A DNA stretch of 64,000 nucleotides from Planctomycetota bacterium. Its GTDB lineage: Bacteria > Planctomycetota > Phycisphaerae > Phycisphaerales > SM1A02. Shown here one piece after another: positions 2,492-9,191 of this stretch; the stretch's first letter is position 1; each line of letters begins with the position of its first letter. Position numbers and translations under genes: made by a program. Below the pieces are notes generated by a model. The model was not told the origin of the DNA. It did no database searches and was given only the letters and a program-made list of their open reading frames with translations. Where the stretch lies: assembly GCA_022574595.1 (NCBI GenBank), contig JACZRS010000003.1, positions 62,001-126,000 of the forward strand, read 5' to 3'.

Positions 2492-2737
2492 TCATCCACC
2501 ACTAACTGGTGGAATTAGCGCTAGCGTGTCGCCATCTTTTATTTCTGTATTGGTATTGCAGTATTGTTCATTGATTGCTACTGCAATTGAGTTGCGCATT
2601 TGTGCGATTGTTTTGTGTTCTTGTGCTAGTTCGTTTAAAGCTTCGTTTACTGTTGCGCCATTTGATAGTTCGATCGTTATGCGATCTTTGCCGATTGTTT
2701 GTGCTAACTGAGCGAATAGTAAAACTTGGCATTGCAT
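2492..2737 (-). CDS. moaD: Molybdopterin synthase small subunit (MoaD)
   Basis: An 81-residue ubiquitin-like sulfur carrier. The C-terminal thiocarboxylation tail is intact (PPVSGG), and length and the LFAQLAQTIG opening fit MoaD. It donates sulfur to precursor Z with MoaE to make molybdopterin; MoaE is not in the window. It is the last gene of the minus-strand operon that begins at the cobalamin riboswitch, 15 bases after moeA. Its ATG has no strong Shine-Dalgarno sequence, which suggests translational coupling to moeA. Confidence 0.92.
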   Translation of the reverse strand: MQCQVLLFAQLAQTIGKDRITIELSNGATVNEALNELAQEHKTIAQMRNSIAVAINEQYCNTNTEIKDGDTLALIPPVSGG

Positions 2738-2752
2738 GAAAATTGAATCGCT

Positions 2753-3949
2753 TTATGGGTAAGGTAGGAAGCGCAGTTGCGTTCCTTCAATTACAGCTTC
2801 TTCTTTAATCGGTAATTCTAATAAACCGTGCGTTGGTGCGGTGTGGGATATGTCGCCGGATCCCGCCCAGTTTGGGACTTCAGCGCGGCCATCATTTAAC
2901 AAAATCGCAGGGCGAAATGCTCTGCGTTTGGGGTTGGCTTTTACTGTATGTGATAATTCTACTTTGCGCCATGGCAAGAGTGGATCGAGGCCTAGCATTT
3001 TGCGCACGATGGGCCAAATGAAAATGCAGGTACAACTTAAAGCAGAAACCGGATTGCCCGGCAAACCAACTACCACACAATTATCAGGAGCTTGGCCAAC
3101 ATAAATAGGTTTGCCCGGCTGAATCGCAGCCCGTCTTAGTGTTGCCTTCACGCCTAGCTCTTCAAAGGCTGGCGGGAAGAAATCGCGATCACCCGCACTG
3201 ATCCCGCCAATCGTTATTACTAAATCAGAGTTTGCGATCGCATCTCTAACAGCCTCGGTAGTTAACTTCGCATCATCAACTATATGTATATGTTGCGTCG
3301 GCTCTGCGCCAATGCGTTTAAGTAACTCAAGCAACATAGGCCCATTGGAATTACGAATTTGATGATCTTCAACGGGCGAGTCAGCAGGCAAAATTTCATC
3401 GCCTGAGGTTAACACTATTGCGCATGGCCGACGTATTACCGCAATTTTAGCTTTGCCAACTGTTGCAGCGATTGCGATATGTTGGGCTTTGATTATTGTT
3501 CCTTTTGCAACAAGATGATCGCCTAGCTTTGCATCAGAACCGTAGGGATGAACCGCATTGCCTTGCTTGATCGAATCAATAGTAAAACTAACCGGATCAT
3601 TGCGATCAGATAATTCATGTTGAATTACCGTGTCAACATCTGCGGGCAGGGGGGCGCCAGTTGCGATTTTCACACAAGAACCAACCGGTACATCTAGTTT
3701 TCCATTAGAGCCAGCACTGACAGTTTCAACCACCGGCCAACTTGTTAATTCACCAACTTCAGCTGCGCGAAGAGCATAACCATCCATCTGCGCTCTATTA
3801 AATGGAGGTAAATCACGGTCGGCATTGATAGAGTCCCCAAGAACCCTGCCTGCTGCTTCAATCAGCGAAACGTTTTCTTGTTTCTTAGTTGCACTAATAG
3901 CTGTTAAAGCAGCAGACAGCGCATCGTTGTAATCCAGCAACTGATTCAT
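2753..3949 (-). CDS. moeA: Molybdopterin molybdenumtransferase (MoeA)
   Basis: A 398-residue full-length MoeA, which inserts molybdate into adenylated molybdopterin to give active Moco. Visible are the N-terminal PPFNRAQMDGYALRA block (about residues 47-61), the GAPLPADVDTVI segment, the MoCF_biosynth core (TSGDEILP, ITIGGISAGDRDF) and the C-terminal beta domain beginning near PGKPIYVGQ with GLPGNPVSALSC. The start ATG overlaps the stop of the upstream hydrolase by 4 bases (ATGA), indicating coupled translation. It sits in an operon led by a B12 riboswitch, an unusual place for a Moco gene. Confidence 0.95.
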   Translation of the reverse strand: MNQLLDYNDALSAALTAISATKKQENVSLIEAAGRVLGDSINADRDLPPFNRAQMDGYALRAAEVGELTSWPVVETVSAGSNGKLDVPVGSCVKIATGAPLPADVDTVIQHELSDRNDPVSFTIDSIKQGNAVHPYGSDAKLGDHLVAKGTIIKAQHIAIAATVGKAKIAVIRRPCAIVLTSGDEILPADSPVEDHQIRNSNGPMLLELLKRIGAEPTQHIHIVDDAKLTTEAVRDAIANSDLVITIGGISAGDRDFFPPAFEELGVKATLRRAAIQPGKPIYVGQAPDNCVVVGLPGNPVSALSCTCIFIWPIVRKMLGLDPLLPWRKVELSHTVKANPKRRAFRPAILLNDGRAEVPNWAGSGDISHTAPTHGLLELPIKEEAVIEGTQLRFLPYP

Positions 3950-4755
3950 GAGGTTTTAGCAAGCGCGGAATTCTGCCCCATAGACTCGAAAAACCGTGTT
4001 ATGTGGTTTAAGCATACTCCGCGTCCTGGTTGCTGCGTAAAGAAATGATCCGCAAGCGCGATTAATGTGTGCTGGACATGGTGATCTGCAAGTTCAATGG
4101 CGCGCGAGTATTCGTAGGAAATTTCAGCAGGAACCGCACGGTCGGCTGCGCCATGAAGAATCAACGTAGGCCGATCGTGTAATGCTGCGTCTTGTGGAGG
4201 CGTTAGATTCTTCAGATCAGCAAAGTAATGTTCGTTTGCTTGCTCAACGCCAAGTAGTGGAGCAGATTCGCCGTCGCCATTACTCGATATGTGTGCAAGA
4301 ACATCATCGGGAGTTGTAGGCGCCAGCAGACATAACCTTGCGATTTGATCTGTGCGCTTAGTCAAACACGCAGCAACGATACTCCCAAGCGAAAATCCCA
4401 ATACACCGATACGCCTAAGGTCGATTTTTTCTTGCAAGGCTAACCAACGAAATACAGCCGAGGCTGCATCAATTGATTCAACAGCCAAGCGCTCGGTTGC
4501 CTGGCCGTTGGATTCTTGACCGCAGGGTCCAAACGTAAGCGTTGCAATCCCCGCCCTATGTAGAGCATCTGCTAAATGCTCAAATAGCTCATCTGTAAAA
4601 GGACTAGGTGTAGCTAGCCCATCACACATTAATATTGCTGCGCAGCGATCATCATCACCGTTGGTTTCAGGTCGAGAGAATGTGCCTCGAACTTTACGAT
4701 CACCAACATCCAATGTGAACTGCTTCACTTTGCGCATGGCAGGCATGATACGCAT
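3946..4755 (-). CDS. Alpha/beta hydrolase, dienelactone-hydrolase-like
   Basis: A 269-residue predicted cytoplasmic serine hydrolase. The nucleophile elbow is GFSLGS (near residue 118), a putative acid lies in ILHGAADRAVP and a histidine in LADHFFTQQPGR. The N-terminal beta sheet with DGLATPSPFTDELFEHLADAL resembles the YfbL/DLH-like hydrolases. Substrate unknown. No signal peptide is visible. The start (4755) directly abuts the stop of the upstream pseudopilin and the stop overlaps moeA by 4 bases, so it is inside the riboswitch-led operon. ATGs at codons 4 and 7 are alternative starts. Confidence 0.8.
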   Translation of the reverse strand: MRIMPAMRKVKQFTLDVGDRKVRGTFSRPETNGDDDRCAAILMCDGLATPSPFTDELFEHLADALHRAGIATLTFGPCGQESNGQATERLAVESIDAASAVFRWLALQEKIDLRRIGVLGFSLGSIVAACLTKRTDQIARLCLLAPTTPDDVLAHISSNGDGESAPLLGVEQANEHYFADLKNLTPPQDAALHDRPTLILHGAADRAVPAEISYEYSRAIELADHHVQHTLIALADHFFTQQPGRGVCLNHITRFFESMGQNSALAKTS

Positions 4756-5532
4756 TTACTCATGACTTGGGTTGTAAGCTGAATCATAATCTGAAAGGAA
4801 GCCGTTATTGGGATAGTCCATTATCTCTTTTAATAGCTGTTCGGTGGCGAATCTGCCTTTCCTCGCGTGTCCAACCGAGTTGACATGCCCATCTACATAT
4901 GCAACATTTGTTGAGCCGGTATGGCGAAATGCCTGGGTTCCAGCGTAGATCGTGGCTAGGTCGTATTCTTCGCTATTTAATGGAGCGCGCATGAATTTGT
5001 TAGCTCCGGATGAATAACCACCATCTCCAAACATTGCGGTTTGTGATGATCGCTGACATGCGTGCGGTTTGACTCCCCACCGAACTGGTTTGAATCCAAT
5101 ATTAGGAAATGGCGCTTCACCGCCTATGTAGGTTGTGTTGTAGTTGTATCCGGTGAAGGGATCGCCCGAGTAGTTTGCAGATCCGTGATATTCCGGGCAT
5201 TGCTGGACCGAATCGGGATTATTTCCAAACGACCATAGCGGGCCTGGTTCTATCAGCTCGCCGCCCATAGTTGTAACCCAATCCCACGCAACTTGAACTA
5301 ACAGTCCATCGCGCGACTCAAATCGAAGCGCAACTGGAAAAACATCATAAACCGCAGCATAACTTTGTGAGGCCAAACTCATTTGCCGAAGGTTAGAAAC
5401 ACATTGGGTAGATCGGCCTGCCGCTTTGATACTCCCTAATGTGGGCATCAAAATCCCCAGCAGCAAAGTAACAAGACCGATCACCACAATGAGTTCTACC
5501 AGTGTAAATCCACGTGGTAATTTGCGTTTCAT
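4756..5532 (-). CDS. Type II pseudopilin-like protein, H-x9-DG family (DUF1559-like)
   Basis: A 258-residue protein with a prepilin peptidase site, MKRKLPRG|FTLVELIVV, followed by the usual hydrophobic helix (about residues 9-30), and a C-terminal H-x9-DG motif (H-TGSTNVAYV-DG). This is the large planctomycete pseudopilin family. I chose the ATG at 5532 rather than the TTG at 5538 because it forms a 4-base ATGA overlap with the stop of the upstream surface protein and gives the standard leader. Such proteins are thought to form pilus-like or type II secretion-like structures in the cell envelope. The pairing with a dockerin-like surface protein and the B12 riboswitch suggests an envelope role linked to cobalamin, which is inference only. 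Confidence 0.88.
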   Translation of the reverse strand: MKRKLPRGFTLVELIVVIGLVTLLLGILMPTLGSIKAAGRSTQCVSNLRQMSLASQSYAAVYDVFPVALRFESRDGLLVQVAWDWVTTMGGELIEPGPLWSFGNNPDSVQQCPEYHGSANYSGDPFTGYNYNTTYIGGEAPFPNIGFKPVRWGVKPHACQRSSQTAMFGDGGYSSGANKFMRAPLNSEEYDLATIYAGTQAFRHTGSTNVAYVDGHVNSVGHARKGRFATEQLLKEIMDYPNNGFLSDYDSAYNPSHE

Positions 5533-6476
5533 GACCAAGCTGCAAAAAGGATTAATAGATCAGATGTACCGACGGTTTGATCGCCATCCAAATCACCTGG
5601 ACAATCTTCTGGCTCATTAGGACAAGGTCCCCATAAGCTAAACAGTATTAAAAGATCTATAGTAGAAACACTGCCATCTTGATTTAAATCTGCGGGATCA
5701 AACATTGGCGACACATCACTAAACGCATCGATTTCGACATTCAAGCTAGCATCAATCGGCACATATACGCGCACGAAGCTAATTGAATCCAAACCAACAT
5801 CAGCTAAATCAATCCCCACGCCGCCGCCTGATCCTGCATAAATATCCTTTAGTTCGCTAGAATTCAAACCCATCAGATCGCCAAGGGTTATGGCTGGATC
5901 GACTGGCAATGAAAAATTTGTGAGTATACTGCCCGGATCTTGATCGTATGGACCCGAATCCAAGTAGCCATTCGTTGGAAATATGCCATCAGCTACTACC
6001 GATTTGATTTCAAACCAGTCAACGCCGTTTGCGCTAACTTCAACGATGCCGCCGTCACCACCGAAGAGTCCTGCTACGATTCCGTTGGGATAGTTGGCAT
6101 CAATAAAGCCGGCATTTCCAAAGATTAGTAAATCAATACCAAAGGGGTTGGCTGGGTCATCGGTGATGGGATTTTCAAAGCTAACGGTTAGATGCCCACC
6201 AACTCCGATAGAGACAATTTCATCCAGGCCAAATGGCGGGTTAAATGGGCTAACTACTCCGGGGAAGATTCCTTCACCGGTAAAGCGTTCAGGTGAGAAT
6301 AAAGCAACAAGAGGATCGGTATATCCCTTAGCTGCATTATCTCCTTGGTCATATTCGATCACTTGGTTGGCAAATGCTTCATTACCGCCGGGCAAGGCAA
6401 ATGCAGCAGGCGACTCAGCTAGGCTCAAGGCAAATGCGCAGATTACAACTGGGAAAATTCGGGTGACTCGGTACAT
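5529..6476 (-). CDS. Exported surface protein with C-terminal dockerin-like module, first gene after B12 riboswitch
   Basis: A 315-residue secreted protein. An N-terminal signal peptide (about residues 1-27, ending near AAFA) precedes a beta-rich domain with NPPFGLDEIVSIGVGG, ITDDPANPFGIDLLIFGNAG and SANGVDWFEI, which reads as a jelly-roll-type carbohydrate or ligand-binding domain. The last 60 residues carry two acidic calcium-loop repeats: DLNQDGSVSTIDLLILFSLW and DLDGDQTVGTSDLLILFAAW. This dockerin-type-I-like tail is frequent in Phycisphaerae exported proteins and probably serves cell-surface display. An AAGGA lies about 9 bases before the ATG. It is the first gene after a cobalamin riboswitch, so it is a candidate cobalamin-capture or B12-dependent surface protein. 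Function unproven. Confidence 0.85.
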   Translation of the reverse strand: MYRVTRIFPVVICAFALSLAESPAAFALPGGNEAFANQVIEYDQGDNAAKGYTDPLVALFSPERFTGEGIFPGVVSPFNPPFGLDEIVSIGVGGHLTVSFENPITDDPANPFGIDLLIFGNAGFIDANYPNGIVAGLFGGDGGIVEVSANGVDWFEIKSVVADGIFPTNGYLDSGPYDQDPGSILTNFSLPVDPAITLGDLMGLNSSELKDIYAGSGGGVGIDLADVGLDSISFVRVYVPIDASLNVEIDAFSDVSPMFDPADLNQDGSVSTIDLLILFSLWGPCPNEPEDCPGDLDGDQTVGTSDLLILFAAWS

Positions 6477-7043: not shown

Positions 7044-9191
7044 ATGATGAATGCTTCGCGTATACGATGCACCCTGGCCGGATTCATAGCGGCGTTGGTG
7101 CTTGGCACAGCAACTTATGGGCAAGATGCCCCAGCTGAGCTTTTTGATGATTTTATCCATTACACATTGATCGCAAAACCAGACCTGGCGGCTGCCAAGG
7201 CTGAGCTGTTGCTTCAATCTGGAAGGACAAACGCAGAGCTGGCGCAAATGCTCGACGATGATCCTGCACTTGTGAAACGGTTCAATCGTGCGATTGTCCG
7301 TGGGCTTTCTGTGCTGGAACTAGAAGACATCGCGACCGAACTCGATCGTCGAGTCGAACTAGGCAGACTTGATCTTGCGCGCGATGCTAATCGTATTGAT
7401 GAAGCAATAGAAATGTTGTTGCTACATCAGCGTGCAAAGATGCTGGGTCGACAACGACTTATCGCAGCTGGTGAATATGCAATTCCTAAGTTGCTTAAGG
7501 TCGTAACCGATGGGCAGAACGATCGGCTTAAGGTTGCAGTTAGCGATGTCTTTGTAAAGATCGGCCGACAGGCGGTCAGCCCGCTTTGCCAAGCTCTTGC
7601 ATATATCGATCCAGCCAGTCAGCGCTACGTTTGTGAGAGATTGGCAGAACTCGGCTATCCACATGCTGCTCCTTACCTGCTGGAACTTTCTACCGATGAT
7701 AGTACAGTCACTGCAACACGCGATGTAGCTGCTCGAGCATTTAGGCGCATTGGTGGTGGAAGCAATGACCTTAGCGTTCTTTACACAGAACTCGGCATGC
7801 AATACTTCAGCGAATATGAATCACTGATCGCGTTCCCAGGTGAAGCGACTAACAACGTCTGGACATATGATGTTCATTCAGGCCTTTTGCCCATGCCTGT
7901 TCCTACTGAGATTTTCTCAGAAGTCATGGCTATGAGCGTGGCATCTAAAGCTCTGGAAATTGATCCCTCTAACGATACAGCTTTGAGCCTGTTTGTTGCT
8001 TCAAATCTGCGTAGGGAAAATCAATTGCCCCAAGGCGATGCTGATCCTATTTATGGTGAAAACAACTATAGCCCTTTGTTCTATGCGACTGTTTATGGAA
8101 CCGCAACTTGCCTGGACGTTTTAGCCATGGCGCTCGACACAACCGACACACCTTTAGTGCGTGATGCTATTGCTGCTTTAGCGCAAACTACTGGCGGATC
8201 GAATCTGTTTTCTTCTAAGTCAGGCCAACAGCCGCTGCTTGATGCACTTAGATACCCTGATCGCCGTGTGCAATATGAAGCTGCGTTAACCTTAGGCAGA
8301 GCTTTGCCACAGAGATCATTCCCCGGCGATTCAACTGTCGTTCCAACACTAGCATCAGCAGTAAGGTCAGGCGGAGCCAGTTATGCTGCGGTTATTTCCG
8401 ACAATGAAGAACAACGACGCATTACTGCTTCTAAATTAGAAGGCCAGGGATATACAGTCATCGCTACTGGTGACAGCCTTCGTAATATCGCAAATGAACT
8501 TAATCAATCCGTGGGAGTTGATCTTGTTGTAGTTGATGTCGAAAGCATTGCTCGTACAACAAAAACTTTAGCTGACCTCAGAGGCTTTCCACGAACAAAT
8601 GCCTGCCCGGTAATGCTGATTTGCGTTGCAGTTGATAGGCCAGCACTTACAAGAGAGTTCAGTGATGATTTATCCATCGAAATCAGTACGCGCAGAACTG
8701 ATGATGACCAATTTGCTGCCGGTGTTGAACTACTCATGCAGCGAGCATCAGGCGGGCAAATGAGCGATGCTGAATCTGAGGGTTATGCCATCGAAGCACT
8801 ATCTGCTCTTCGTGTTGTAGCAATTGCTGGCAATACCTCTTACAACATTGCTGATGCGGAAACATCACTGCTCGAAGCCCTTGATGGACGTAGTGGTGGA
8901 ACTCGACTTCTCGTTGCCGATACGCTTGCTCTTATGGATTCAGACCGAGCGCAGCGAAAGCTCTTTGATGCTGCACTTGCAGCTACTGACTTTGAGCAGA
9001 TTGAACTTCTTAATAGAGTGACATCTTCCGTTAAACGCTACGGCAACCATGCAGAAGAACGTCACGTTAAAGCGCTTCTTAAACTAGTCGCTGACTCCAG
9101 TGGCGCAACAGCAGAAGCAGCTGCTCAACTTCACGGGGCACTTAATCTGTCCACACAAGATGCAGTCGGCCTTATCCCACAAAATAAGTAA
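7044..9191 (+). CDS. Exported HEAT-repeat protein with embedded receiver-like domain
   Basis: A 715-residue protein with a signal peptide (about residues 1-26, TYGQDAPA). An AGGAG lies 9 bases before the ATG at 7044; the next codon is also ATG. Residues of about 130-250 and 365-440 form HEAT-type helical repeats (IPKLLKVVTDG, AAPYLLELSTDD, LLDALRYPDRRVQYEAALTLG). Residues of about 448-570 look like a CheY-like receiver fold: VISDNEEQRR with acidic Asp453, then VDLVVVDVES with Asp498 in the phospho-acceptor position. The conserved Lys after strand 5 is missing, so phosphorylation is doubtful. The C-terminus returns to HEAT-like helices. An exported receiver-like domain is unusual. Function unknown. 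It is probably a single-gene unit. Confidence 0.82.
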   Translation: MMNASRIRCTLAGFIAALVLGTATYGQDAPAELFDDFIHYTLIAKPDLAAAKAELLLQSGRTNAELAQMLDDDPALVKRFNRAIVRGLSVLELEDIATELDRRVELGRLDLARDANRIDEAIEMLLLHQRAKMLGRQRLIAAGEYAIPKLLKVVTDGQNDRLKVAVSDVFVKIGRQAVSPLCQALAYIDPASQRYVCERLAELGYPHAAPYLLELSTDDSTVTATRDVAARAFRRIGGGSNDLSVLYTELGMQYFSEYESLIAFPGEATNNVWTYDVHSGLLPMPVPTEIFSEVMAMSVASKALEIDPSNDTALSLFVASNLRRENQLPQGDADPIYGENNYSPLFYATVYGTATCLDVLAMALDTTDTPLVRDAIAALAQTTGGSNLFSSKSGQQPLLDALRYPDRRVQYEAALTLGRALPQRSFPGDSTVVPTLASAVRSGGASYAAVISDNEEQRRITASKLEGQGYTVIATGDSLRNIANELNQSVGVDLVVVDVESIARTTKTLADLRGFPRTNACPVMLICVAVDRPALTREFSDDLSIEISTRRTDDDQFAAGVELLMQRASGGQMSDAESEGYAIEALSALRVVAIAGNTSYNIADAETSLLEALDGRSGGTRLLVADTLALMDSDRAQRKLFDAALAATDFEQIELLNRVTSSVKRYGNHAEERHVKALLKLVADSSGATAEAAAQLHGALNLSTQDAVGLIPQNK

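Follow-up and report, generated by a model that had tools for sequence, protein, structure and literature searches.

A cobalamin riboswitch-led BtuH-like protein and its pseudopilin in Planctomycetota: a probable B12-capture module

Among the described B12-capture proteins, the closest to the one reported here are those of the BtuH type, represented in B. thetaiotaomicron by BtuH1, BtuH2 and the C-terminal domain of BtuG1/BtuGH (structures 7biz and 8blw; PMC8941943). BtuH-type proteins have been described from gut Bacteroidetes and three Firmicutes, and more than 80% of the BtuH homologues in gut Bacteroidetes share an operon with btuB (PMC8941943), which we regard as the usual context of the domain rather than as a necessary trait. 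BtuG, a B12-binding surface lipoprotein with a beta-propeller fold, acts in the same setting (PMC6143338, PMC10404256). Likewise, the BtuJ or DUF4465 proteins capture B12 under riboswitches (PMC12751083, PMC13398666), and binding of B12 was reported for eight distantly related members that were tested (PMC13398666).

The window, that is, the whole stretch of 64,000 nucleotides analysed here, was taken from a planctomycete draft genome (4.09 Mb in 31 contigs, 96.4% complete). On its minus strand, a cobalamin riboswitch is followed by the genes for an exported protein (SEC), a pseudopilin (PIL), a hydrolase, MoeA and MoaD, in this order. The features of the locus are as follows:

6845-6622, minus strand: cobalamin riboswitch aptamer RF00174 (cmscan, 80.2 bits; gathering score 31.5), ~145 bases ahead of the first start codon
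5529..6476, minus strand: SEC, exported BtuH-like protein of 315 amino acids (open reading frame; orthologues in nearly all family genomes)
5715..6386, minus strand: BtuH-type B12-binding-like domain, SEC residues 31-254 (alignment A1, AlphaFold2, Foldseek and VIA-align, profile link via A2)
6114..6116, minus strand: codon of SEC Asn121 (N91 of the domain), counterpart of BtuH2 Asn399, which contacts the B12 phosphate there (A1)
5532..5705, minus strand: dockerin-like C-terminal tail of SEC with two calcium-loop repeats (Pfam Dockerin_1), a generic tag in this genome
4756..5532, minus strand: PIL, dedicated pseudopilin of 258 amino acids from its ATG (N_methyl, DUF1559 and H-X9-DG; orthologous group; AlphaFold2 pLDDT 93.7)
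3946..4755, minus strand: alpha/beta hydrolase (Pfam), adjoining the SEC/PIL pair; found in few relatives and outside the core
2753..3949, minus strand: MoeA, molybdopterin molybdotransferase-like (profile matches), a neighbour in only part of the family
2492..2737, minus strand: MoaD (profile matches), a neighbour in only part of the family

According to cmscan, the riboswitch of the SEC/PIL locus is the single RF00174 copy in the whole genome. A first-pass annotation had placed a riboswitch above two genes overlapping by 4 bases, and this arrangement was borne out by the aptamer match and by the sequence itself, where the overlap reads ATGA. That B12 represses SEC and PIL is an assumption based on the class of riboswitch. 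Neither an intrinsic terminator behind the riboswitch nor a sigma-70 promoter at the riboswitch was found, and a plasmid search gave no match. Opposite the riboswitch lies a divergent gene for a HEAT-repeat protein (7044-9191, plus strand), and most loci of the family have a gene there that is comparable in size and orientation.

Relationship of SEC to BtuH

SEC starts with a hydrophobic leader, and its sole Pfam match, Dockerin_1 (24.4 bits, E 3.5e-5), is barely above the Pfam cut-off of 22.9. The dockerin-like calcium loops reported in the first-pass annotation are therefore backed by a real match, but they belong to a tag that is generic in this genome: more than 50 further copies of the tail occur elsewhere in it, and no match to cohesin (PF00963) was found. 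For these two reasons the tail is uninformative with respect to SEC, and we take it to be a general-purpose tag for sorting or attachment. In relatives, the tail is replaced by a PEP-CTERM-like end or is missing. Cellulosome-like docking of dockerin to cohesin was rejected in view of the generic nature of the tail and the missing cohesin.

The remainder of the protein is more telling. SEC residues 31-254, which were aligned with 32 homologues (alignment A1), were modelled by AlphaFold2 with a mean pLDDT of 96.4 and a pTM of 0.93 as a jelly-roll-like sandwich. The first-pass annotation had proposed that a predicted structure be compared with known cobalamin-binding folds. When the domain model was searched with Foldseek against 350,542 PDB chains, just three matches were obtained at E<=0.001, at ranks 1-3, and these were BtuG1/BtuGH of B. 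thetaiotaomicron, which includes a BtuH domain (8blw_B, E 2.4e-6), and B12-bound BtuH2 (7biz_A and 7biz_B, E 2.7e-4 and 3.3e-4). The Foldseek superposition over whole chains was poor. By VIA-align 2, the SEC domain aligned with 8blw and 7biz at Z scores of 13.1 and 12.9, respectively, with 26-27% identity over 139-146 residues, and the matched region of 8blw, residues 391-658, lies outside its propeller. The next VIA-align entry after the BtuH chains was a fucose-binding module (Z 10.4). The SEC domain, as modelled, shares the fold of the BtuH2 C-terminal domain.

Single-sequence searches of the PDB did not reveal the relationship, with phmmer retrieving only dockerins and noise for SEC and nothing for a homologue from the same class (L147), so that intermediates and structure were needed to establish the link to BtuH. 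When five orthologues from sister families were combined into a profile (A2), it matched 8blw (3.2e-27) and 7biz (1.5e-19) and no other chains among the PDB sequences, and 8blw was also retrieved, at 1.4e-14, with an SEC homologue from outside the class. The window group (A3), in turn, was connected to A2 by profile comparison with a probability of 99.3% (E 2e-20), whereas its direct comparison with BtuH was weak (61%, E 8e-5). By way of these sequence intermediates, the SEC domain is related in sequence to BtuH. The first-pass annotation had pictured a protein that parallels BtuG-like capture proteins without being related to them. SEC is indeed no relative of the BtuG propeller, as it is neither a seven-bladed propeller nor homologous to one, and the window pair has no propeller gene next to it; SEC does, however, belong with the known BtuH family.

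In BtuH2, Asn399 and Gln333 make polar contacts to the phosphate and ribose of B12, Tyr510, Trp577, Trp511 and His476 bond to side chains of the ring, and the lower ligand is in contact with Phe401 and Leu578 (PMC8941943). The 7biz chain index and the published numbering are offset by 100, which places Asn399 in a GNAF motif and agrees with the residue types at positions 333, 401, 577 and 578. The Asn399 counterpart, Asn121 of SEC, is invariant in 33/33 homologues in A1. Most of the corrin-ring contacts of BtuH2, in contrast, are not conserved in the window group, for which positions 476, 510 and 511 could not be aligned. Since this group, moreover, has not retained Gln333 and lacks the Trp577/Leu578 loop, the ring pocket of SEC, if present, would be differently built.

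Conceivably, the SEC domain could be a galactose-binding-like module for carbohydrates or surfaces, for example an adhesin, with B12 acting only as its regulator. Common carbohydrate-binding modules have a similar fold, with VIA-align Z scores of ~10 to fucose-binding modules and F-lectins, and the lack of conservation of the BtuH2 ring contacts would suit such a function. Yet BtuH and BtuG1 come out on top by fold and are the sole sequence matches of the relatives, the Asn399 counterpart is invariant, and DUF4465 B12 binders share operons with SEC homologues, as detailed below. We consider this carbohydrate-module explanation improbable. B12 capture by SEC, as the first-pass annotation had suggested, is likely; this role is strongly supported by the predicted structural relationship with the BtuH domain, by the sequence relationship through intermediates, and by the riboswitches that nearly always lead the homologues.

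Like BtuH, SEC is exported and stands under a cobalamin riboswitch. Unlike BtuH, and in addition to the differences at the ring-contacting residues and the Trp577/Leu578 loop, SEC has no lipoprotein anchor and no PKD or Ig-like domains, carries the dockerin-like tail, lacks BtuB both in its neighbourhood and genome-wide, is constantly partnered by a pseudopilin, and occurs in planctomycetes instead of Bacteroidetes.

Conservation of the riboswitch and the pseudopilin

Within a sample of 41 genomes, mostly from the family and order of the window, most family members carry the riboswitch, usually one per genome, immediately before the SEC homologue. The region is syntenic across the family, so these genomes are not independent, and the independent weight for the riboswitch link comes from other families, where the neighbours differ. 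SEC homologues were found in 55 genomes of a 392-genome sample of the phylum, and RF00174 was present upstream, on the same strand, in 37/40 fetched loci; two of the three other loci start at a contig edge. The first-pass annotation had stated that its proposal would fall if homologues were mainly found without B12 riboswitches, and the phylum loci revealed the reverse. If one assumes one or two riboswitches per genome and genomes of several megabases, we estimate that chance alone would place a riboswitch at roughly one SEC locus in a thousand. Furthermore, a strict B12-box pattern, which is stricter than the covariance model, was detected in 50/75 loci as compared to 7/1,029 background windows. 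At two family loci (G005 and G021) no riboswitch was detectable, even at a relaxed threshold. Two SEC homologues from outside the class (L160 and L161; G265 and G320) are positioned ~4.6 kb behind the riboswitch in ORFs of ~1,400-1,480 amino acids, which suggests large multidomain B12-regulated surface proteins.

The hydrolase, moeA and moaD genes lie on the same strand as SEC and PIL with short gaps or overlaps, and moeA and moaD are found near the SEC/PIL pair in ~10 family genomes. This arrangement would allow the riboswitch to serve the downstream hydrolase and molybdenum-cofactor genes, with SEC and PIL being incidental. As most related loci comprise riboswitch, catcher and pseudopilin without these genes, we regard such a target as extremely improbable, and a reading of the riboswitch driven by moeA and moaD was rejected on the gene order in relatives.

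PIL has a prepilin cleavage/methylation motif and a long hydrophobic N-terminal helix. Its designation as an H-X9-DG pseudopilin in the first-pass annotation was corroborated by Pfam matches to N_methyl (24.7 bits) and DUF1559 (34.2 bits) and by an H-X9-DG match whose score equals the cut-off (19.0 bits). The AlphaFold2 model displays an N-terminal helix of 52 residues (13-64) and a compact head, for which no significant fold match was found in the PDB. PIL thus resembles other planctomycete DUF1559/H-X9-DG pseudopilins in its N-terminal methylation motif, DUF1559 start, H-X9-DG end and long N-terminal helix. In contrast to these, the PIL group is tied to B12 riboswitch loci, and its same-genome relatives match mostly at the N-terminus. 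A model of the PIL group (A5), which favours its own members since it was built from the same sequences that it scores, gave one full-length match per genome in nine genomes (197-331 bits); the score gap is nonetheless large, the next paralogue reaching 77-107 bits in 8/9 genomes and aligning largely over the N-terminus. The ninth genome, G317, has a further B12-locus-type pseudopilin that scores 180 bits and lies away from the main locus (G317:C1:3575417-3576196). PIL is a distinct, nearly always single-copy orthologous group that is dedicated to the B12 locus.

In loci of the class Phycisphaerae, PIL follows SEC directly or one gene later. A scan of a genome collection was performed with A3, and the related records were labelled mostly Phycisphaerales, Phycisphaerae or Planctomycetota; PIL was situated <=3 kb from SEC in 73/75 of the genome-collection loci. 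The coupling of the exported protein to a pseudopilin, as noted in the first-pass annotation, is real and class-wide, while most loci outside the class are devoid of PIL. At one locus (L091 in G032), the riboswitch is followed by a pseudopilin without a recognisable SEC homologue.

B12 import and the possible roles of PIL

The genome of the window encodes a MetH equivalog (1,273 bits), which implies that B12 is used. GATase_3 (CobQ/CbiP/CobB) was not matched in this genome, and the relatives gave only short, weak matches. Judged from this one family, de novo synthesis of corrinoids is unlikely, and the presence of MetH together with the absence of GATase_3 indicates a need for B12 import. One FecCD permease of a BtuCD/FecCD-type importer is encoded with an adjoining ATPase and binding protein; it is not under the riboswitch, and B12 and siderophore importers were not separated by NCBIfam for this system. 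As for the outer membrane, general porins are considered too narrow to admit B12, and Gram-negatives are known to use the TonB-dependent receptor BtuB instead. While BtuB would meet the same need here, a search with one Pfam model revealed no TonB plug domain in this draft genome, nor in the nearly complete, module-holding relatives G018, G025, G030, G034 and G038. Some other module-holding genomes encode one or more TonB receptors. The first-pass annotation had also pointed to TonB receptors near homologues as something to look for, but none was found near the window homologues. Five secretin-domain loci are present in the genome.

The locus is probably best explained as a B12-capture module in which a BtuH-type protein is paired with a dedicated pseudopilin, feeding an ABC importer and MetH. 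Upon shortage of B12, the riboswitch would let expression proceed into the module. SEC would be exported, and its BtuH-type domain would bind cobamides outside the cytoplasm, either at the surface or after release. PIL, dedicated to SEC as its cargo, would join a type II secretion or type IV pilus-like assembly, which may export or display the catcher, conceivably on a fibre as the first-pass annotation had pictured, or help B12 through the outer membrane. The BtuCD/FecCD-type importer would then bring B12 into the cytoplasm and so to MetH.

What PIL contributes could be confined to secretion: it would be a substrate-specific part of a type II system that exports SEC, the catcher being released or wall-bound, with no role in uptake. 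Pseudopilins are parts of secretion systems, five secretin loci are at hand, and the tight coupling of the SEC and PIL genes suits a pair of exporter and cargo. Vesicles of B. thetaiotaomicron that carry BtuJ act in a siderophore-like manner (PMC12751083), which is in agreement with a released catcher. However, many proteins with the same tail are, as far as seen, exported without an adjoining private pseudopilin, and the pair is present in genomes without a TonB receptor, where another entry route is needed. We therefore regard secretion as the only function of PIL as a tentative possibility. The same genomes without a TonB plug, together with the import need implied by MetH without GATase_3, would be accounted for if SEC and PIL carried B12 across the outer membrane in place of BtuB, perhaps via a secretin channel. 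This we deem rather unlikely, as the module also occurs in genomes with TonB receptors, unseen porins could pass B12, the TonB absence relates to one Pfam model, and, to our knowledge, there is no precedent for pseudopili that import small molecules.

Many members of a large clade use B12 although they have no TonB plug domain that could be detected, and the only cobalamin-riboswitch unit found in them is, as a rule, the BtuH-type catcher together with its own pseudopilin. SEC and PIL in a B12-using genome without a detectable standard outer-membrane receptor thus hint at an undescribed route of B12 uptake, and B12 import into such cells becomes a directly testable question. BtuH-type proteins are extended to Planctomycetota, and one group of DUF1559 pseudopilins is given a likely role. 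The first-pass annotation knew of no such system; the domain family is known from Bacteroidetes, and a search of open-licence papers retrieved no such planctomycete module. Within the literature searched, no account was found of a planctomycete BtuH-type domain, of its fixed pairing with a pseudopilin or of the missing TonB receptor.

Other exported proteins in the riboswitch operons

Variants of the operon support the B12 reading of SEC and PIL. One relative (G411) has a DUF4465 gene (2.2e-53) between the riboswitch and SEC, followed by PIL, and in another (G037) DUF4465 (3.5e-33) is fused to a protein that matches SEC only weakly (28 bits), upstream of PIL. BtuJ-type captors thus share the operon in one relative and are part of a fusion in the other, whereas the SEC domain is of a different family and DUF4465 is absent from the window locus. 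In several sister families, the riboswitch operon includes exported propeller-like genes, some of which match PQQ_2 (Pfam) while others were judged by eye, an arrangement reminiscent of BtuG. In yet another genome (G036), it is a TonB-dependent receptor that is led by the riboswitch instead.

A small exported protein of ~180-215 amino acids was also seen directly under cobalamin riboswitches, sometimes with a second riboswitch in the genome (L069 in G008, L086 in G029, L097 in G010, L099 in G004, L146-L149 and L153). It displays a motif of approximately VEYWAGxGxNxAMVVVDF...FGYxWDGE, often has a PEP-CTERM-like end, and belonged to no Pfam family where this was tested. This recurrent protein is a candidate for a further B12-capture family.
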